Origin: Bryobacterales bacterium
GTDB lineage: Bacteria > Acidobacteriota > Terriglobia > Bryobacterales > Bryobacteraceae
Reading direction: 5' to 3'
Assembly (NCBI GenBank): GCA_947446025.1
Contig: CANFEY010000017.1
Location: forward strand, 1-64,000
Length of the DNA: 64,000 bases
Shown here: positions 11,712 through 26,934 of the stretch, one piece after another
Position numbering within the stretch: the stretch's first letter is position 1
Layout: every line of letters starts with the position of its first letter
The notes under the pieces: generated by a model
Told to the model about the DNA's origin: nothing
The model's input: only the letters and a program-made list of their open reading frames with translations
Database searches by the model: none
Position numbers and translations under genes: made by a program

Positions 11712-12301
11712 ACGGTGGCTCCTCTAAGATGTTCGTCCAATTGCTGGCGGAGGGCCAAGCGCGCGCGGTGGAGGCGGGTTTTGACCGCGTCGTTTGAGAT
11801 GCCCAGGATCTCCGCTGCGTCTTCGGTGGAAAGTTGTTCCACATCCCGCAGCAGGAAGACCGCGCGGTAGAGGTCTGGCAGGTCGGCGACGGCGGAGTCA
11901 AGGGCGAGGCGAAGTTCTGAGTCCTGGGCCGCACGGTCGGGCAGAGGCCCCCAATCGGCGATTTGCAGGCGTTGCTCACCATCTTTGAAGGGGCGCAGTT
12001 CGTCCAGTGAAAGTTCCTCCTTGGGTGCAAAGACACTTTTGCGGCGCTTCATGAGGCAGGCGTTTTTCGCGATGCGGAAGATCCAGGGTTTGAGGCGCTC
12101 AGGATCTTGCAACTGGTCCAGGTTCTGGAAAACCTTGAGCAAGGTCTCCTGCGCGACTTCTTCGGCGTCCTCGCGCTGGTGGCACATAGCGTAACTGTAA
12201 CGAAACAGCTTCGCGTTGTAGGCCTCGACAAAGTGATCGAACGCTTCCGGGCTGCCGTTCAACAAATCCCGAGCCAGTTGTGTGTCGCCGGAAGGATTCA
12301 T
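11708..12301 (-). CDS. ECF RNA polymerase sigma factor
   Basis: About 197 residues. Region 2 (EAFDHFVEAYNAKLFRYSYA, EDAEEVAQETLLKVFQN) recognises the -10 box and region 4 (LPDLYRAVFLLRDVEQLSTE, ILGISNDAVKTRLHRARL) the -35 box. It is followed in ATGA overlap by its ZAS anti-sigma factor. The ATG at 12301 gives MNPSGDTQLARDLLNGS, a normal ECF start; an upstream in-frame ATG at 12337 is possible but adds an atypical basic leader. An OsmC gene lies divergently, 59 bases away, and a universal stress protein follows that, which hints at an oxidative or electrophile stress regulon. Confidence 0.92.
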   Translation of the reverse strand: MNPSGDTQLARDLLNGSPEAFDHFVEAYNAKLFRYSYAMCHQREDAEEVAQETLLKVFQNLDQLQDPERLKPWIFRIAKNACLMKRRKSVFAPKEELSLDELRPFKDGEQRLQIADWGPLPDRAAQDSELRLALDSAVADLPDLYRAVFLLRDVEQLSTEDAAEILGISNDAVKTRLHRARLALRQQLDEHLRGATV

Positions 12302-19229: not shown

Positions 19230-19910
19230 TTAGTGGCTGTGGGCCTGGCGGCGCAGGGAGTCGATTTCGGTGGCGAACTCGCCCTGGCGCATGCGCACTG
19301 AAGCGAGAATCGTGGCGAGGCACAACATTGCCAGCCAGTTCCAGTACATGGGTGTTTCAAGGCCTGGTCCCATTCCGCCGCCTTCGCGGAAGCCGAGCAC
19401 CGGTGAGGGGTGTTGGGTTCGGTACCACGCAATCGACTGGTAGACGAACGCCACATTGATGCATCCCAGGATGGACATGAAGGCGCTCAATCGAGCGCGT
19501 TGTGTGGGTTCGGTGATGGCCTGCCGCAGCATTACGTAGCCGTAGTACATCAGCAGGCAGACCAGCATGCTTGTAAGCCGGGCGTCCCAGGTCCACCAGA
19601 TGCCCCAGGCATAGCGAGCCCAGATCATGCCGGAGATCAGGTTGGCGGTGGCGAAGGCGAGTGCGACTTCGGTAACGCCCGCAGCGAATGCGTCGTACCT
19701 GAGTTTGCCGGTGGCGAGGTACAGAATGCTGGCCACCAGCGCCGTCACAAATCCCGTGAATGCGGTAAAAGCCGCTGGCACGTGGAAGTAGATGATCTTA
19801 TAGGCACCCACGTTGGTCACCTGTTGCGGAAGGTCCAGGATGGTAGCCCCGTTCCACAATAAGATCCCCGCGAATACGGCCGCGAGTAGAAATAGTATGG
19901 TTTGCCTCAA
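19230..19910 (-). CDS. ccmC: CcmC, heme-handling membrane protein of cytochrome c maturation
   Basis: 226 residues with six membrane segments. The WWD heme-handling motif (WGIWWTWDARLT) is intact, flanked by histidines (YFHVPAAF in the second segment region, and another near TQHPSP). CcmC presents heme to CcmE in the periplasm. Spacing to ccmB is three bases and to ccmD is ten, so the operon is tight. An extra loop (RTQHPSPVLGFREGGGMGPG) precedes the last segment, a common feature of the family. Confidence 0.93.
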   Translation of the reverse strand: MRQTILFLLAAVFAGILLWNGATILDLPQQVTNVGAYKIIYFHVPAAFTAFTGFVTALVASILYLATGKLRYDAFAAGVTEVALAFATANLISGMIWARYAWGIWWTWDARLTSMLVCLLMYYGYVMLRQAITEPTQRARLSAFMSILGCINVAFVYQSIAWYRTQHPSPVLGFREGGGMGPGLETPMYWNWLAMLCLATILASVRMRQGEFATEIDSLRRQAHSH

Positions 19911-19913
19911 GTT

Positions 19914-20585
19914 TTACCCCACCAAAACAACATCTATGTATAACACGGTGACCGCGGTGAACGCGATGTCGAAGGCCACCAAAACACGCAGCCAAACCAG
20001 GTTCGTCGCGATGGGGACACCGGCAATCAAGTCCGTGGTCAGGATCATCGCCGACATCAACACCGGAATCAGGAATGGATAAATCAGCACCGGCAGCATC
20101 AGCTCCCGCATCGTTAGGTTCACTGTCAATGCACTGAACGTGGTGCCGATAACCGTAATCCCCCATGTCGCTAATAACATGACGAGTGAGAGCAGCCCGA
20201 GCTTCCCGGAAAGACGCACGTCGTAGAGAATTGCGAACACGCCCAGTGAGATCAGCTCCACTGCCATCAATAGCGCGAAGTTCGCGAGAGCTTTTCCCAG
20301 AAAAATCGCGCTGGGTGGCGCAGGGGAAGAGATCAGTGCGTCCAGGCAATCGTTCTGCAGTTCCCGTGCGAAGCTACGATTGAGCACTAACGCGCCGGCG
20401 AACGCGTAGGCCAGCCACAGCAGGCCGCCCAGAAGGCCCTTCAGGTCCTCTGCCTGGTCGAAGGCGAAGCTGAACAGGATCAGGATCACCATGGAAAACG
20501 CGACCGAGGCGTTGAGCGCTTCCTTGGTGCGCATCTCCGACCGCAGGTCCTTTGCGGCGATGGTCCAGATTTGGCGCAGGTACAC
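19914..20585 (-). CDS. ccmB: CcmB, membrane subunit of the heme ABC release complex
   Basis: 223 residues with six membrane segments. The family start IWTIAAKDLRSEMRTKE is plain, followed by FAGALVLNRSFARELQNDCL and the DALISSP element. It pairs with CcmA, and the ATP cycle releases heme-loaded CcmE from CcmC. The GTG start shares one base with the ccmA stop. It ends three bases before ccmC. Confidence 0.93.
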   Translation of the reverse strand: MYLRQIWTIAAKDLRSEMRTKEALNASVAFSMVILILFSFAFDQAEDLKGLLGGLLWLAYAFAGALVLNRSFARELQNDCLDALISSPAPPSAIFLGKALANFALLMAVELISLGVFAILYDVRLSGKLGLLSLVMLLATWGITVIGTTFSALTVNLTMRELMLPVLIYPFLIPVLMSAMILTTDLIAGVPIATNLVWLRVLVAFDIAFTAVTVLYIDVVLVG

Positions 20586-21286
20586 TAGTTGTCTCCGTAG
20601 GTCCTGTACAGCCAGCTGGTGTCTTTCAGCATCTCATCCTGGCGTTCGCCGTCGTAGGCGACTTCACCACGCTGAATAAATGTTACGTGCGTGGAGAGTT
20701 CCATGGCCTCGCGCAACTGGTGCGTCGACATCACTACGGTGCGCCCGCGGTCGCGCATTTCCTTGAGCATGGTTTGCAGCACGGCGATGGCTTTGTCGTC
20801 GAGCGAGGTGAACGGTTCGTCAAGCAAGAGCAGTTCGGGGTCGTGCAGGAACGCCCGGCCGATTGCCAGACGTTGGCGCATACCGCGCGAGAATTCGCGC
20901 GCGAGGCCGTCGCGTACGCGACCGAGGCCGACGCGGTCCAGCATCGCGTCGGCGCGCTTGCCTGCGTCATCCAGGCCGTAAAGGCTGCCGAACATCGTCA
21001 GGTTCTCATGCGCGGAGAGTTCGTCGTAGACGGAGATGCTGTGTCCCAGCACTCCTATGCGCCGCCGTGTGCCAGCCTCACGGGCTTCCGCCCCGTTCAC
21101 TTTGACAGAGCCTTGCGAGGGTTGCGAGAGTCCCGCCATGATACGCAGCAGCGTGGTCTTGCCTGCGCCGTTGCGTCCCAGCAGCGCTACCACCGAACCC
21201 GGGGCCACCTTGAAAGACACGTCGCGCAGAGCAGGGAAGTCGCCGAAGAATTTGTAGACGCCCGCTACTTCGAGCGCGAGGCTCAT
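20585..21286 (-). CDS. ccmA: CcmA, ATPase of the heme-exporter complex
   Basis: 233 residues. Walker A is GRNGAGKTT, the signature region is EFSRGMRQRLA, Walker B is LLLLDEPFTSLD and the switch is STHQ. The ATG at 21286 lies in ATGA overlap with the preceding gene and begins MSLALEVAGVYKFFGDF, while the longer frame upstream is only the neighbour read in another frame. The signature FSRGM instead of LSGGQ is characteristic of CcmA-type ATPases. The arrangement ccmA-ccmB-ccmC-ccmD is canonical. Confidence 0.93.
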   Translation of the reverse strand: MSLALEVAGVYKFFGDFPALRDVSFKVAPGSVVALLGRNGAGKTTLLRIMAGLSQPSQGSVKVNGAEAREAGTRRRIGVLGHSISVYDELSAHENLTMFGSLYGLDDAGKRADAMLDRVGLGRVRDGLAREFSRGMRQRLAIGRAFLHDPELLLLDEPFTSLDDKAIAVLQTMLKEMRDRGRTVVMSTHQLREAMELSTHVTFIQRGEVAYDGERQDEMLKDTSWLYRTYGDN

Positions 21287-22248
21287 ACAGTGCCGCGGCG
21301 AAATAGGAGCGTGCCGCCCAGCAGGAGGATCGTCAAACTCAAGCCCAACACCCACGCCATCTGCGTGTTGACGCGCGCAGGCGCTTCTTCGCAGCACTTC
21401 GGAGCGCCGCTCTCTTCACCGGGTGGGGGAGCAACGGCCTCGGGCCCACGAATAGAGCCGACGCCTAGGATCTTCACCTTGAACGAATTCCCCTTGAAGG
21501 TGTAGACGCGGGCTTGGGTTTGCTGCTCTTGCCCGAGGTCGGTGAGTGCGTCGCCTGAGAGCGTTACCGAGCCAGGTGTAACAAGCTTGGTCGCAGGAGT
21601 CTCCGCAAGCACGCGGCTGGAGAATGTGTCCGATGCCGGCAGTGAATATTCGAGGTCGAAGCGGGTCTCGCCGGGCTTCAGCGGATAATCGACTTTGTAC
21701 TGCCCGTTCTGGCGGCCCTTTTGCACCGGGCGCTGAATGGGCACGCCGGTGGAGTCGATGCTGATCTTGAGGTCGGCTGGCACGCCTTGCGGCAGATACA
21801 GCTTCAGCGTTCCGTTGGTGGCGTCGAAGTAGGTGATGTTGGAGTTGTTCTTGGTGAAGAACGTTTCGCTGATGTGGAGCGTGGTGGCGCTCGGCTCGAT
21901 CAGGATCAGATGCTGTGTCGTCATGTCGGTGGGCGGGACGGCGCTGGCCTCGAAGACGTTGACGGTCAGGCCGGTGGTGGGAGTTCCGGGCGGGATGGCC
22001 TGGGTGTAGGTGACTCCGGCATAGGTGCTCCGCAGCAGGGCGGGACCGGGGGGGATGCTGGCGTCGATTGTGAATGTGCCGTCGGCGGCGGACTTGGCGT
22101 TGCCCAGGGCTTGCATGCCGTTGGCACCGGGCTGGACCAGGTCAATGCTGACGCCAGCCTGTGGTTTGCCGGTGGTGGCATTAGTGGTGACGCCGGTGAC
22201 CGCGCCGAACGCGGAAGCCGCTGCCAGCAGCGCTAGGAGGAATCTCAT
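21283..22248 (-). CDS. Secreted/membrane protein with regulatory-like beta domain, inside the ccm run
   Basis: 321 residues. A signal peptide (MRFLLALLAAASAFGA) is followed by a carboxypeptidase-regulatory-like sandwich (AVTGVTTNATTGKPQAGVSI, SAADGTFTIDASIPPGPALL) and a second beta-rich part carrying the heme-free motif HLILIEPSATTLHISETFF. A Pro-rich linker with PKCCEEAP precedes a C-terminal membrane helix (AWVLGLSLTILLLGGTLLF) and a basic tail, so the bulk lies in the periplasm. The adjacent cysteine pair may be redox active. Start and end are in ATGA overlaps with neighbours. No function for it in cytochrome maturation is known to me; its position suggests one. Confidence 0.75.
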   Translation of the reverse strand: MRFLLALLAAASAFGAVTGVTTNATTGKPQAGVSIDLVQPGANGMQALGNAKSAADGTFTIDASIPPGPALLRSTYAGVTYTQAIPPGTPTTGLTVNVFEASAVPPTDMTTQHLILIEPSATTLHISETFFTKNNSNITYFDATNGTLKLYLPQGVPADLKISIDSTGVPIQRPVQKGRQNGQYKVDYPLKPGETRFDLEYSLPASDTFSSRVLAETPATKLVTPGSVTLSGDALTDLGQEQQTQARVYTFKGNSFKVKILGVGSIRGPEAVAPPPGEESGAPKCCEEAPARVNTQMAWVLGLSLTILLLGGTLLFRRGTV

Positions 22249-22637
22249 GCCATGGCCTTTCCACACTCGCCGCAGAATTTCATGGAGGCGGGGAATTTCG
22301 AGCCGCAGTTCGGGCAGGTGGGAACAACGGGTTCTTCCACGACGTCTTGCGCGACACGCGCCGGGGCGGTGCTTTTCATACGATCCATCTCCGCCAGCAC
22401 GCCCGCGAGTTCTTTCTGCAGGCCGAGCTTGGTCTGTTGATAGTCGTCGTCAGAGAGTTTGCCCACGCGGTACTCGAACTGCAGGTCGCGCAGATTTTCG
22501 TAGATGGCCGCGCGGCGCTCTTCCAAGTGATGCGTGGGAGAGACGGGAGCGACGGCGGGAATATCCGTGTCGCGGATCAGGAATGTGAAGGCGACCGTCA
22601 GCACAATCAGGGCGACGGCGGAAGCGAGGATGACCAT
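22245..22637 (-). CDS. CcmI-like membrane protein with C-terminal zinc ribbon
   Basis: 130 residues. An N-terminal membrane helix (VILASAVALIVLTVAFTFLI) is followed by a coiled region that matches the CcmI head (NLRDLQFEYRVGKLSDDDYQ, KLGLQKELAGVLAEMD) and then a zinc ribbon with CPNCGSKF and FCGECG. CcmI helps deliver apocytochrome to the CcmF-H complex; the zinc ribbon in place of a TPR domain is unusual. Its position straight after ccmH (TAATG overlap) supports the CcmI link. Orientation of the ribbon relative to the membrane is not clear. Confidence 0.75.
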   Translation of the reverse strand: MVILASAVALIVLTVAFTFLIRDTDIPAVAPVSPTHHLEERRAAIYENLRDLQFEYRVGKLSDDDYQQTKLGLQKELAGVLAEMDRMKSTAPARVAQDVVEEPVVPTCPNCGSKFPASMKFCGECGKAMA

Positions 22638-23113
22638 TAATCGAGTTTGTCCAGATCGTTGTCGATTTGCGCCTGATACTTGGCGAGTTGGGCGTCGCTG
22701 GCGGGCGCAACCGCCGGAGCCGGTTTCAGACGCTTCAAATAACCAATTGCGAAAAACAGCGCCAGTCCGCCCAGGGCGAGAGCGATGTAGGGTCCGGTGA
22801 AGCCCAGGATGCCGGGTTCATGCACCAAAACGCCTGGGCCTTGTTCCTTCACATATTGGTCCAGGATTTGCTGTTCGCTCATGCCGGCTTTCAGCATGTT
22901 CGCCATCTTGATCTTGTTGGTCTTGCACACCTCGCACACGCCGGAAGGCGGCATGACGCAGGCCATATCCAGGTGGCAGCCGCAGTTGCAGTTGAGGCGC
23001 TTGGCGATGCCGTTGATCTGCGGGGTCTCGTATTCGCTGGCGGTCTGTGCCACGCACAATCCGGCGGCGATGGCGACCAACAACCCTGCCTTAAACTTTT
23101 GCAGGCTTAACAT
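22637..23113 (-). CDS. ccmH: CcmH-like apocytochrome thiol oxidoreductase, atypical cysteine motif
   Basis: About 158 residues. Signal-like hydrophobic start, a soluble domain, and one C-terminal helix (ALALGGLALFFAIGYLKRL). The canonical LRCxxC is replaced by RLNCNCGCHLDMACV, followed by GVCEVCKTNK; six or so cysteines in 30 residues are more than in standard CcmH. The rest (MANMLKAGMSEQQILDQYVK) is the typical three-helix CcmH part. A GGAGTG ribosome binding site precedes the ATG at 23113, 23 bases inside ccmF. The protein probably reduces apocytochrome CxxCH, with altered cysteine chemistry or a bound metal. Confidence 0.8.
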   Translation of the reverse strand: MLSLQKFKAGLLVAIAAGLCVAQTASEYETPQINGIAKRLNCNCGCHLDMACVMPPSGVCEVCKTNKIKMANMLKAGMSEQQILDQYVKEQGPGVLVHEPGILGFTGPYIALALGGLALFFAIGYLKRLKPAPAVAPASDAQLAKYQAQIDNDLDKLD

Positions 23114-25106
23114 GACCCACTCCTGTTTCGACAACTTCCATGCGCGGGAAGACCAGCTTTTTCTTGTCGGGGACCAAGCACACCAGGGTGCCGAAGAGCA
23201 CCACCAGGAAGCCGATCCAGATCCAACTCACCAGCGGGAAGATATAAGTCTGCATGACCACGTTGTTACCCGCTCCGGTGCCCGCGAAGTTGATGTAGAC
23301 GTCCTCGTTCAGGCGGCGGCGCAGGGCGACGTCGGTGGTCGGCGTTTGCGACGCGATGAAGAAGCGGCGCTCGGGCTTTTCGATGCTCAGATGCTCGCCG
23401 TTCTTCGATAGATCCACGATCACGCGATCCCAGCGGTACTGATTCGATTCTTCACCCTCTTCGTAGCCGACCACTTTGATGGTGTAAGGGCCCAACTGCG
23501 TCGATTCGCCTTGCGCCAGTTCCACCGTCTTGCTCTGGTTGAACGCAGCGCCGGTGTAGCCGATGAACATGATGACGATGCCGACGTGGACCAGATAGCC
23601 GCCGTAGCGGCGTGTGTTGCGATGCGTCAGTTCGATCATGGCCGCGATCAGGTTCTGTCCGGACTTGGCGGCAATCGCGCTCGCGCCCTTCCAGAATTCG
23701 GTGGCGATGGTCGTGGTCACGAAGGCGCACAACGCGAAGGAGATCAGCGCGTAGACGTGGCGCATGCCCAGCGCCATCAGGACCACTGCCGTCGATACGC
23801 CCAAAATGGTGGGCCAGCGGAACGCCCGCTTCAAACTGTCAAATGAACTCCTGCGCCAGGCTATCAGCGGACCGATGCCGGTCAGCAGCAAAAGGAACAG
23901 CGCGATGGGAATGTTCACGCGGTCAAAGAACGGCTTGTCCACGCTGATCTTTTCGTTCATGAAGAACTCGGTGATCACCGGGAACAGCGTGCCCCACAAT
24001 ACGGAGAAGCAACTGGCCAGCAGCACCAGGTTGTTGAACATGAAGCTCGACTCGCGCGAAAGCACGCTTTCCAATTGCGCTTCGCTCTTCAGGAACTCCA
24101 GGCGGGTGAGCAGAAGGTACACCGTGGCCGAAATGCCGATGGCCAGGAACCACACGAAATATTGCCCGATCGGGCTGCTCGCGAACGCGTGTACCGATTG
24201 CACGATTCCGCTGCGCGTGAGGAACGTACCGAAGATGCACAGGAAAAAGGTGCTCGAAACCAGTACCATGTTCCAGACCTTCATCATGCCCTTTTTCTCC
24301 TGCATCATCACGGAGTGCAGGAACGCGGTGCCGGTGATCCACGGCAGCAGCGACGCATTTTCCACCGGGTCCCAGGCCCAGTAACCGCCCCATCCCAACA
24401 CCGCGTACGCCCAGGCCGAACCCAGCACGATGCCGCAGCTCTGGAATAGCCACGTCACCAGCGTCCAGCGGCGCGTGGTCTTGATCCACTCTTCACCGGG
24501 CTGCTTGGTGATCAGCGATCCCATGGCGAAGGCGAACGGCACGGCGAAGCCCACGTAGCCGAGGTATAGCATCGGCGGATGGATCACCATGGTCCAATAC
24601 TGCAGCAGCGGATTGAGGCCCTGACCGTCGCCCAGGTCGACCACGCCTTTGCCCGCGACCAGCAGCCGGAAGGGGCTGGCGACAAACGCGTTCAAGATGA
24701 GGAAGAACACCTGCACCGACATCATCACGCCGATGACGTACGGCATCATCTCGCGGAACTTGCGCCGGTTCTGGAAGGTGACCACGGCGGAATAGGTGGC
24801 CAGCAGCCAGCTCCAGAACAGCAGCGAACCGGCCTGCCCGCCCCACCACGCCGCGAACTTATACTGAATCGGCATGGTCTTATTGCTGGTTTCCCAGACG
24901 TAGGCCAGACGGTAGTCGCCTTGCATGATGGAGTAGATCAGCACACCCGCGCCCACCGTGACCAACAGCCACACGGTGTAGACCGCGCGCTGCCCGCTTT
25001 GGATGAGGAACGGCCGCTGCGTCAGCTTGCCGATGACGGAGCCCAGCAAAGCGTAGATCGCGAAGCAAAACGCGAGCAGAATGGCGAGAGCGCCTATGTT
25101 TTCCAT
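23091..25106 (-). CDS. ccmF: CcmF, heme lyase subunit of cytochrome c maturation
   Basis: 671 residues with many membrane segments. The WWD motif reads WGGYWAWDPVENASLLPWIT and the family block FLTRSGIVQSVHAFASSPIG follows. Histidines typical of the b-heme and WWD sites are seen in YWTMVIHPPMLYLGY. CcmF takes heme from CcmE and attaches it to CxxCH of apocytochromes. A C-terminal periplasmic domain (about residues 520-640) contains VALRRRLNEDVYINFAG. It starts 24 bases after ccmE. Confidence 0.95.
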   Translation of the reverse strand: MENIGALAILLAFCFAIYALLGSVIGKLTQRPFLIQSGQRAVYTVWLLVTVGAGVLIYSIMQGDYRLAYVWETSNKTMPIQYKFAAWWGGQAGSLLFWSWLLATYSAVVTFQNRRKFREMMPYVIGVMMSVQVFFLILNAFVASPFRLLVAGKGVVDLGDGQGLNPLLQYWTMVIHPPMLYLGYVGFAVPFAFAMGSLITKQPGEEWIKTTRRWTLVTWLFQSCGIVLGSAWAYAVLGWGGYWAWDPVENASLLPWITGTAFLHSVMMQEKKGMMKVWNMVLVSSTFFLCIFGTFLTRSGIVQSVHAFASSPIGQYFVWFLAIGISATVYLLLTRLEFLKSEAQLESVLSRESSFMFNNLVLLASCFSVLWGTLFPVITEFFMNEKISVDKPFFDRVNIPIALFLLLLTGIGPLIAWRRSSFDSLKRAFRWPTILGVSTAVVLMALGMRHVYALISFALCAFVTTTIATEFWKGASAIAAKSGQNLIAAMIELTHRNTRRYGGYLVHVGIVIMFIGYTGAAFNQSKTVELAQGESTQLGPYTIKVVGYEEGEESNQYRWDRVIVDLSKNGEHLSIEKPERRFFIASQTPTTDVALRRRLNEDVYINFAGTGAGNNVVMQTYIFPLVSWIWIGFLVVLFGTLVCLVPDKKKLVFPRMEVVETGVGHVKPAKV

Positions 25107-25130: not shown

Positions 25131-25541
25131 TTAGCCGCGCGTCACGACGCCCGTGGGCTTGGCTTCATACTTCGATGCGCACTTGGCTTGTACTTTGGTG
25201 GCGTGGAAGGTGCCGTCCGCGGCGAGCTTGCCATCCGCCAGGGCTTGTGAGCCGTCCTTGAAGGTATCCGGCAACGGGTCCGAACCGGTGTAGACCACGT
25301 TCAGCGTCAGGTCGTTCTGGATCAGCGTGAAATGGACCTTGTCGCCTTCGCGGACGATTGAGTTGGCCTTGATATCGCCGCCCACGCGCAGGCGCTTGTC
25401 GAAAGACTCGCTGCCCATCTGCTTCAACTCGGCGAGCTCTTTGTAATAGGTGGCCGTCTGCTCCACGCCCCCCGCTGCCAGCCAGCCTAAGGTTCCCAGG
25501 ATGATCGCCGCTAAGAGTCCGAACTTCAAGTTCTTGTTCAT
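25131..25541 (-). CDS. ccmE: CcmE, heme chaperone of the CxxxY type
   Basis: 136 residues: a membrane anchor (FGLLAAIILGTLGWLAAGGV) and an OB-fold beta barrel (RVGGDIKANSIVREGDKVHF, PLPDTFKDGSQALADG). In most CcmE the heme is bound to the His of HxxxY; here the sequence is AKCASKY, so Cys121 and Tyr125 form the CxxxY version known from Desulfovibrio and some archaea. The rest, including GxxAxxGxFxAxxVxAKC, is canonical. It is the first ccm gene, 56 bases after the anti-sigma gene. Confidence 0.92.
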   Translation of the reverse strand: MNKNLKFGLLAAIILGTLGWLAAGGVEQTATYYKELAELKQMGSESFDKRLRVGGDIKANSIVREGDKVHFTLIQNDLTLNVVYTGSDPLPDTFKDGSQALADGKLAADGTFHATKVQAKCASKYEAKPTGVVTRG

Positions 25542-25597: not shown

Positions 25598-26233
25598 CTA
25601 GTTCACTAGGCTGGAAGGCGGGAGCACGGGCGGCTCCTGGTCATGGCACAAAAGACAGGCGGCCCGGAACTCACCTGGAGCGGTCCAGGCCAAGGTGTAG
25701 CTCTGCCCCTTCATGCTCCAAGAGGTGACCCGCGCGGTTTCCAGCGCGTCGCTGCCCCGGAAATCGTGCTTGGGGTAGGATTTTGTGCCCGTGGGGTCCT
25801 TGGTCACCAGCAGCGCGGCGCGGAACTCGCCCACCTGGTAGGAGACTTCCGCCACGCGCTTGGATTCCCCATTTACGCGCGCCCCTTGGATGCGGATCAC
25901 GCCCGCGTGTTTGGGTGGGAGCGGTATGTCTATGCCGGAATTGGACTTAACCCACTTGCGCACGGAGGCGGCGTCTTCGGTCTGTAGGTCCAGGTTCTCC
26001 GGACCCCGGTCCAGCGCGGCCAGCGCCATTGCTTCCACAGTCTGCGGGGCTCGGAATTCGTTCCACAGCGTCCAGCCGCCGGCGATAATCGCGACCAGGG
26101 CTGCGGCAGCCGCCCACGACCACCCGCGCGAATGCACCGGCACGGGTCCGCGTACGTGGCTCCACAGATTGGGCGGAGCTTCCACGCGCCCCAAGTGCTT
26201 CTTCAAAACTGGATCTAGATTCTCAGAACTCAT
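25598..26233 (-). CDS. Membrane anti-sigma factor with C-terminal CxxCH heme motif
   Basis: 211 residues. A cytoplasmic part (about 1-36) precedes a membrane helix (SWAAAAALVAIIAGGWTLW, 39-57) and a periplasmic domain. The latter has the pattern of COG5662-type anti-sigma factors: VRKWVKSNSGIDIPLPPKHA, then IRIQGARVNGESKRVAEVSY. Near the end lies CLLCH (Cys193, Cys196, His197), encoded at 25643-25657, a perfect c-type heme attachment site. It starts three bases after an ECF sigma stop, so the two form a cognate pair. No ZAS zinc motif was seen in the N-terminal part. That a heme is attached, and acts as signal, is inference from the motif and the ccm genes that follow. Confidence 0.8.
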   Translation of the reverse strand: MSSENLDPVLKKHLGRVEAPPNLWSHVRGPVPVHSRGWSWAAAAALVAIIAGGWTLWNEFRAPQTVEAMALAALDRGPENLDLQTEDAASVRKWVKSNSGIDIPLPPKHAGVIRIQGARVNGESKRVAEVSYQVGEFRAALLVTKDPTGTKSYPKHDFRGSDALETARVTSWSMKGQSYTLAWTAPGEFRAACLLCHDQEPPVLPPSSLVN

Positions 26234-26236
26234 AAG

Positions 26237-26803
26237 TTACCGTTGTGCCAATCCACTCAACCGCCGCTCCAACACTTTGTGTGCCCGGTTCAAGCGCGAG
26301 GCTACCGTGCCCCGGGAACACTGCAAAACATCCGCGATCTCTTCATACGACAAGCCTTCGGTGTAGCGCAGAACCACGATCATCTTGTGCTCCGGCGATA
26401 GCCGCGCTACTACATCCTGCACCTGCTGCTGGCGCTCGTCCCCTAATAGATTCTGGAGAGCGGACGCTTGAGGCGCCCGGAACGAATCAAAAAACTCTTC
26501 CACCATCGGCATCCAGCGCTTCTGCCGCCGCCGGTAGTCCAGACAGCTGTTCACCACCAGCCGGTAGAGCCAGGAATCGAAACTCGACTCCCCGCGAAAC
26601 TGGCCGATGCGGTCCATCAACTTCAGAAACGTGTCCTGCGCAATGTCCATGGCCGCTGCGCGGTCGCCCGCATAACGCAGTGCGATGGAGTAGACCTTGT
26701 CCTTGTGGGACTCAAACAGCTCACGGAATGACTCTTGGTCGCCGCGTTGGCAGCCTTGTATGACGTCGTGGTTTAAACCTACGTGGTCAGTTTCCACTAC
26801 CAT
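26237..26803 (-). CDS. ECF RNA polymerase sigma factor heading the cytochrome c maturation run
   Basis: 188 residues with region 2 (ESFRELFESHKDKVYSIALR, AMDIAQDTFLKLMDRIGQF) and region 4 (LSPEHKMIVVLRYTEGLSYE, CSRGTVASRLNRAHKVLERR). The ATG at 26803 has an AAGGAA ribosome binding site. It is the first gene of a minus-strand run that passes through its anti-sigma factor into ccmEF and the rest. An inverted repeat (26815-26835) sits just upstream and may be an operator or part of the promoter. Targets are unknown; autoregulation of this run is the simplest idea. Confidence 0.93.
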   Translation of the reverse strand: MVVETDHVGLNHDVIQGCQRGDQESFRELFESHKDKVYSIALRYAGDRAAAMDIAQDTFLKLMDRIGQFRGESSFDSWLYRLVVNSCLDYRRRQKRWMPMVEEFFDSFRAPQASALQNLLGDERQQQVQDVVARLSPEHKMIVVLRYTEGLSYEEIADVLQCSRGTVASRLNRAHKVLERRLSGLAQR

Positions 26804-26814
26804 GCCATTTCCTT

Positions 26815-26835
26815 CCCCTACGACGCGCGTAGGGG
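26815..26835. repeat. Inverted repeat upstream of the ECF sigma/ccm run
   Basis: CCCCTACG (26815-26822) and CGTAGGGG (26828-26835) are perfect inverse copies around a five-base loop, and the right arm continues into a GGGA stretch. It lies 12 bases before the sigma ATG, so it may fold in the leader RNA or bind a regulator. Confidence 0.45.
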
Positions 26836-26934
26836 AGGGAAACTTCCCTGTATTTTCGGGAGGGGCGGGCATTCCCTCTAAGATAACCTTCCTGGGTCCC
26901 GCTGACGAACCACCGTCCGCGCGGCTACACTGGG

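Follow-up and report, generated by a model that had tools for sequence, protein, structure and literature searches.

Membrane anti-sigma factors of the RseA/MucA type are released by proteolysis. The anti-sigma protein described here resembles this type in its presumed sigma-binding N-terminus, its single membrane helix and its periplasmic C-terminus, and its structure model is weakly similar to RseB and MucB, the partners of RseA and MucA. It differs from this type by a CxxCH tail, by a periplasmic domain that is absent from some relatives, and by its probable target, cytochrome c maturation. The nearest known system is HasI/HasS (PMC11442138), likewise an ECF sigma/anti-sigma pair in a heme-related circuit. 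According to passages in that paper and also in PMC12670364, HasS is informed of extracellular heme through an outer-membrane receptor. In contrast to HasS as described there, the anti-sigma protein of our locus carries a heme c motif of its own, and no gene for a receptor is interposed among the sigma, anti-sigma and cytochrome c maturation (ccm) genes. A further precedent is engineered: heme tags placed at the C-terminus and artificial microperoxidases (work of Braun and Thony-Meyer cited in passages of PMC3601427 and PMC6962350, the latter mentioning a C-terminal heme tag) indicate that a short CxxCH peptide or C-terminal tag suffices for Ccm to attach heme, whereas the protein studied here would be a natural regulatory protein. 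A full-text literature search, with most subscription papers beyond its reach, returned no report of CxxCH or covalently bound heme in an anti-sigma factor, and the words heme and cytochrome are absent from the sigma/anti-sigma papers PMC7406223 and PMC8103513.

An ECF Sigma Factor and a Membrane Anti-Sigma Factor Precede a System I Gene Run

The window, which is the whole stretch of 64,000 nucleotides of Bryobacterales DNA that was analysed, contains on its minus strand a run of genes in the order ECF sigma, anti-sigma, ccmE, ccmF, ccmH-like, ccmI-like, an unassigned gene, ccmA-like, ccmB and ccmC, as determined from ORFs and Pfam matches. The initial annotation had placed the sigma and anti-sigma genes at the head of a ccm run, and this was confirmed, with sigma, ccmE, ccmF and ccmB all over cut-off; the Pfam families over cut-off in the run are Sigma70_r2/r4, CcmE, CcmF_C, CcmB and Cytochrom_C_asm. 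The sigma gene (26237-26803, minus strand; Sigma70_r2 1.8e-20, r4_2 4e-15) encodes a protein with no sigma-70 regions besides 2 and 4 (PF04542 and PF08281 over cut-off; TIGR02937 8.5e-36). A longer ORF (26237-26872) is an alternative, but it encloses an ECF-type promoter (GGAAGTT-N15-CGTCGT, 26820-26847, minus strand), a two-box motif found de novo in relatives. Since this promoter sits just upstream of the ATG at 26803, inside the longer ORF, that ATG, which had already been proposed as the start, was retained. The sigma gene is directly followed by the gene for the anti-sigma factor (25598-26233, minus strand; 211 amino acids), which is supported by the ORF and by relatives.

Downstream on the same strand follow ccmE (25131-25541; PF03100 5.9e-24), ccmF (23091-25106; PF16327 4.5e-61, PF01578 1.2e-37), a ccmH-like gene (22637-23134; PF03918 9.2e-05, below cut-off, in the same position in relatives) and a ccmI-like gene (22245-22637; TIGR03142 0.0016, below cut-off), whose product has a C-terminal zinc ribbon (CPNC...CGEC) that matches zinc-ribbon families below their cut-offs. 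A gene without any family over cut-off (21283-22266) occupies the slot between ccmI and ccmA, as it does in the relatives whose run was read that far. It is followed by a ccmA-like ABC ATPase gene with an uncertain start (20585-21397; PF00005 1.8e-33) that adjoins ccmB (19914-20585; PF03379 7.5e-31), and by ccmC (19230-19910; PF01578 1.1e-21). The System I set ccmA, B, C, E, F and H is thus present in one run, with the CcmH and CcmI calls below the curated cut-offs. No terminator-like site was listed on the minus strand between the anti-sigma gene and ccmE, in a scan that was at chance level overall. The usual CcmE motif is HxxxY, with a His where the window CcmE has a Cys: the latter reads KCASKYE (CxxxY), a string that is identical in the CcmE frames of relatives L085 and L087. 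A second match to sigma-70 region 4 in the window (11750-11908) is not followed by a CxxCH protein.

The Anti-Sigma Protein Has a Heme c Motif on Its Predicted Extracytoplasmic Side

The 211-residue protein is predicted to have its N-terminus inside and a single membrane helix, in agreement with the earlier reading of a cytoplasmic part, one helix and a periplasmic domain. An AlphaFold2 model built from 30 sequences (mean pLDDT 82) consists of two short N-terminal helices, the membrane helix, a periplasmic domain of helices and strands, and a short C-terminal helix (residues 189-195) that enters the CLLCH motif. The two N-terminal helices fall in a predicted sigma-binding cytoplasmic segment (residues 3-28, 26150-26227, minus strand) which includes the sequence APPNLW and in which A19, P20 and L23 are invariant. 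That the protein holds the sigma factor is suggested by its gene position, and the conserved APxxLW segment would be the part that binds and inhibits it. The membrane helix (residues 39-60, 26054-26119, minus strand) was assigned from the model and from hydropathy. An excess of Lys and Arg on its N-terminal side was found in 33 of 44 relatives (equal numbers in seven, fewer in four), and the topology prediction puts CxxCH on the extracytoplasmic side.

The periplasmic domain (about residues 62-192, 25658-26050, minus strand) ends at CLLCH (residues 193-197, 25643-25657, minus strand), the candidate heme c attachment site. The initial annotation had located this motif at the far C-terminus; the residue numbers Cys193-His197 hold, and the motif is near the end rather than at it, as 14 more residues follow. 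The protein matches no Pfam family up to an E-value of 1, and a single NCBIfam anti-sigma model matches far below its cut-off (20.2 of 100 bits). It does not belong to the zinc-finger (ZAS) anti-sigma factors either: residues 1-192 are without cysteine, so that the Hx3CxxC motif is absent. The top 12 Foldseek matches of the model are all RseB or MucB, at a weak level (E 0.003-0.06; TM by query length 0.24-0.32), and none is a known cytochrome c fold. CxxCH as a piece of such a fold was rejected, both because of the missing Pfam match and because relatives without the domain still have CxxCH.

CxxCH Is Conserved Throughout a Clade of Sigma/Anti-Sigma Pairs

A search with the anti-sigma protein over 101 genomes gave matches in 16, its own genome counted. 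CxLCH is present in the window protein and in all of 12 homologues that share 32-62% identity with it, and C, L, C and H make up four of the 12 invariant columns in these 13 proteins. Of 237 genomes from the family, 68 gave matches to a profile made from these proteins, many of the weaker matches spanning the N-terminal segment only. Further proteins from the loci with the strongest matches had CxLCH near their end without exception (17/17). The weaker profile matches (31 loci, L100-L130) were divided: CxxCH was present near the C-terminus in 17, absent in 13 (L107, L110, L112, L113, L115, L116, L119-L123, L128 and L130), and one locus (L105) was partly read. The matches at the 13 loci lacking CxxCH are mainly N-terminal or involve zinc-finger proteins, and the sigma factors encoded there share 31-47% identity with that of the window.

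A second set of loci was assembled from the sigma factor. Twenty-three aligned sigma factors, all from loci found via the anti-sigma protein, were used to scan genomes, the best 80 of 249 relatives were kept, and the downstream gene was read, with a CxxCH frame preferred where present. These 80 loci comprise the 45 nearest, referred to as the clade, and 35 further ones (L176-L210), referred to as the outgroup. In a sigma factor tree that samples 40 of the 46 clade rows (the window among them) and eight of the 35 outgroup rows, the split between clade and outgroup has support of 100/99. Although 42 of the 45 nearest loci had been found by the anti-sigma searches as well (L147, L148 and L155 were new), the sigma-led set has its own value, since a clade sigma factor with a CxxCH-less partner would have appeared in it, and none did. 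With L147 excluded, as its gene runs off the contig, every complete clade gene (44/44) encodes an anti-sigma protein with CxxCH 1-16 residues from its C-terminus; a loss of CxxCH from relatives with the same operon, which the initial annotation had named as evidence against its proposal, was thus looked for and not found. Among the 35 outgroup loci CxxCH occurs in one (L189), and the longer anti-sigma gene found in most of them is presumably FecR-like. One of the 45 nearest loci, L131, comes from an assembly titled Bordetella parapertussis that matches an acidobacterial contig of the genus of the window (G014:C1) and is apparently mislabelled; the remaining 44 are all titled as acidobacterial.

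The window genome itself has 39 matches to sigma region 4. Thirty of these loci were inspected by reading the two longest downstream frames of each, and a membrane protein with CxxCH at most 25 residues from its end was found at one, the locus of the window. At L231, CSVCH occurs 26 residues before the end of a 116-residue frame whose hydrophobic stretch is weak, and this frame was left out of the count. The invariant columns, the conservation in 44/44 genes and the single case among 30 loci rule out CLLCH as a chance motif.

Probable Repeated Loss of the Periplasmic Domain With Retention of CxxCH

The periplasmic domain is missing from seven of the 44 complete anti-sigma proteins (L148, L151, L153, L159, L165, L167 and L173). 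These short forms, of about 80-130 residues, consist of the N-terminal helices, the membrane helix, a tail of 18-39 residues and CxxCH; that of L148 has 82 residues. Across the 44 proteins the spacing between membrane helix and CxxCH ranges from 18 to 149 residues. In a model of the short protein of L151 (built from seven sequences; mean pLDDT 65), the membrane helix follows two N-terminal helices and is connected by a loose segment to a short terminal helix that carries CxxCH. When short and long forms are placed on the tree, five changes are needed, four of which are forced by well-supported branches, and we read these changes as domain losses. At two of the loci (L153 and L165, also retrieved as L125 and L126) a CcmF about 55% identical to that of the window is encoded directly 3' of the domain-less anti-sigma gene.

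The two residues between the cysteines take 17 forms in the 44 genes, from LL through RS, RA, HQ and QA, with C, C and H unchanged. Because the domain is repeatedly missing and the x pair varies while C, C and H stay, CxxCH is, on this comparative evidence, the extracytoplasmic, putative sensor part that is preserved by selection, which bears out the initial proposal of CxxCH as a conserved sensor element. Most relatives retain the domain, which suggests a second input.

Linkage and a Shared Promoter Connect the Sigma Factor to ccm

A comparative search for CxxCH-tailed anti-sigma factors next to ccmE or ccmF, as the initial annotation had suggested, found such adjacency in 24 of the 45 clade loci (ccmE downstream in 21, ccmF alone in two, a divergent ccmE in one) vs none of the 35 outgroup loci; at L147, L159 and L168 fewer than 750 bases follow the sigma gene, so that a ccm linkage could be hidden there. 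CxxCH and ccm adjacency are associated over the 80 loci (Fisher p 3e-8), although this and the Fisher test below overstate the association because the loci are related. No ccm gene is adjacent in 20 of the 44 CxxCH loci, and a restriction of CxxCH to ccm-linked copies was thereby ruled out.

A de novo motif search upstream of the sigma genes returned a two-box motif with the consensus GGAAGAA-N14/15-CGTCTA. Its core (xGAAG..N14-15..CGTC) is present upstream of 46/46 clade sigma genes, vs at most 3/46 in 200 shuffles, and this shared motif points to an ECF sigma factor with an autoregulated two-box promoter. The core was also found upstream of 33 of the 35 outgroup sigma genes (L176-L210), with the same consensus and a different anti-sigma partner. 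The promoter as a mark of the clade alone was therefore rejected; the promoter type is common to a wider set of sigma factors, so that recognition of the ccm sites by a related sigma factor is conceivable, which slightly lowers our confidence in the circuit proposed below and in its more specific form.

For genomes in which ccmE is not linked to the sigma pair, the 400 bases upstream of ccmE were scored for this promoter. The sample consisted of 23 genomes, 20 of them with CcmE, and 18 ccmE loci were scored; L271 (ccmE at the contig edge) and L290 and L291 (CcmE fragments of G015) were left unscored. G267, in which the anti-sigma gene alone is visible at the contig start, was counted as a genome with the sigma pair. 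A promoter-like site of at least about 10.5 bits was found before the unlinked ccmE in 13 of the 18 genomes, 83-176 bases upstream, vs 0 of 18 controls without the clade sigma factor, whose best score was 9.8 (Fisher p 7e-6). The 10.5-bit cut-off was set after the scores were known; at 12 bits 11/18 and at 14 bits 9/18 genomes have a site, and the controls have 0/18 throughout. Among 6000 random windows 3.9% reach 10.5 bits. No site was detected at five loci (L278, L282, L283, L288 and L289), and in the genome of L283 (G272) it is a ccmF gene that immediately follows the sigma pair.

The controls, 18 genomes from the family, were selected because no anti-sigma match lies next to their ccmE. 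Their sigma relatives score at most 151 bits, with one exception of 220 bits (G016), compared with 267-321 for the clade sigma factors; G016 was kept as a control because its 220-bit sigma locus has an outgroup-type anti-sigma gene. A weak anti-sigma profile match in control G143 is without CxxCH. It is quite possible that some of the control sigma factors recognise the same promoter, but no site precedes ccmE in the control genomes, and the ccmE site therefore tracks the clade sigma factor. Because of the linkage, and because the matching promoter precedes unlinked ccmE only in genomes with the clade sigma factor, this sigma factor very probably controls ccm, which lends support to the regulatory loop with ccm that had been envisaged at the outset. 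A search for the promoter pattern throughout the window genome gave no excess over a reversed control (11 vs 11); a wider regulon derived from the pattern was therefore rejected, and no other targets are claimed.

CcmE was found in 211 of the 237 genomes of the family vs 68 with an anti-sigma profile match. CcmE being far commoner, the putative circuit appears to be dispensable and an addition to the maturation pathway. Relatives that lack Ccm altogether were also sought. CcmE was missed in G207, G266 and G273, but all three have PF01578 cytochrome-assembly proteins, one PF01578 frame of G207 beginning near the contig start.

Other Anti-Sigma Proteins With a CxxCH Tail

Zinc-finger anti-sigma proteins with CxxCH near the C-terminus were observed in several families of the phylum (L027 9503-10321, L028 8022-8852, L032, L104, L108, L304-L314, L330 and L331), and the other relatives read alongside them (L315-L329, L332 and L333) are without CxxCH. 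The former share with the window protein a single helix and the position of CxxCH; unlike it, they have a zinc-finger N-terminus, and within about 1.5 kb on each side (L304-L333) there is no match to the ccm proteins of the window. The outgroup case L189 (6444-7007) is also a zinc-finger anti-sigma protein, of 161-187 residues and ending in CGHCHRN, and is a separate short case outside the clade. The anti-sigma protein of L114 (1572-2180) ends in CQICHRA; with a neighbouring sigma factor only 45% identical to that of the window, this locus lies at the clade's edge or beyond it.

A Model for Feedback Control of Cytochrome c Maturation

We lean towards feedback control of cytochrome c maturation at the level of transcription in these soil Acidobacteria, in a circuit in which the tail of the anti-sigma factor would act as a tethered dummy apocytochrome. 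The ECF sigma factor would activate its own operon including ccm, or an unlinked ccm operon via the same kind of promoter, and the membrane anti-sigma factor, whose conserved extracytoplasmic part is the CxxCH ending a tail, would hold it. CcmE, F and H would put heme on the tail as long as heme is delivered, thiols are reduced and the ligase has capacity, all to a sufficient degree; with heme bound, the tail would be stable and the sigma factor kept off. When maturation lags, the naked tail would be cut by periplasmic proteases, the sigma factor freed and ccm induced. That heme is placed on the tail is likely. The sequence recognised by System I extends little beyond CXXCH, and peptides of 12 residues receive heme, as stated in passages of PMC3601427; in a Ccm-competent cell, a CxxCH that is anchored to the membrane and exposed to the periplasm would for that reason be an expected substrate. 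Apocytochromes without heme are degraded, according to passages of PMC5742617, where DegP is named, and of PMC3420020, which suggests how a naked tail could release the sigma factor. The direction, with the naked tail turning the sigma factor on, is a guess, chosen because only this direction gives negative feedback. The more specific proposition, that heme-ligation capacity itself sets ccm transcription, the tethered CxxCH hemylated by the maturation machinery being the only conserved extracytoplasmic feature, we regard as almost evenly balanced between true and false.

The CxxCH tail allows other readings. A heme c on the tail could sense redox state, peroxide, NO or CO, ccm being the target because cytochromes are made or replaced under such conditions, so that Ccm activity would not be the signal. 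The full-length proteins retain a periplasmic domain that is folded in the model, and 20/44 loci are without ccm alongside, as such a sensor would allow. A second ligand could be provided by H156 (67%) or M174 (47%), the His and Met columns outside CxxCH that exceed 40% in the 30-row alignment, start Met excepted; no further Cys column exceeds that level. Against this, the seven relatives without the domain still have CxxCH and so have no pocket to tune ligand binding, and ccm is the sole target seen besides the sigma genes. We consider this sensor unlikely. Alternatively, CxxCH could work without heme, as a thiol-disulfide or metal switch that reports periplasmic reducing power for cytochrome c assembly and that could be read by CcmH, for example, or by a protein of the Dsb type. 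The invariance of both cysteines and the CcmH-like gene in the operon fit such a switch, as does the statement in a passage of PMC3420020 that oxidation of apocytochromes competes with heme attachment. The His after the second Cys is, however, just as invariant (44/44), and a pure disulfide switch would not need it; moreover, System I is reported or supposed, in passages of PMC3601427 and PMC6962350, to act on nearly any exported CXXCH. On balance a heme-free switch seems rather improbable. Control of ccm in response to another envelope signal through an RseB-like domain, with CxxCH merely stabilising the protein, would fit the weak Foldseek similarity to RseB/MucB and is very improbable, as the domain is missing in 7/44 relatives and CxxCH in none.

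If the feedback circuit with a tethered dummy apocytochrome is correct, the bacterium would gauge the output of its cytochrome c assembly via a tethered test substrate that is coupled to a sigma factor. It would also be, within the reach of the literature search, the earliest known example of an anti-sigma factor that carries heme c covalently. The short natural versions, such as the 82-residue protein of L148, would be easy to rebuild in E. coli, and a C-terminal CxxCH on an anti-sigma factor would then serve as a sequence rule for finding regulators that read heme.
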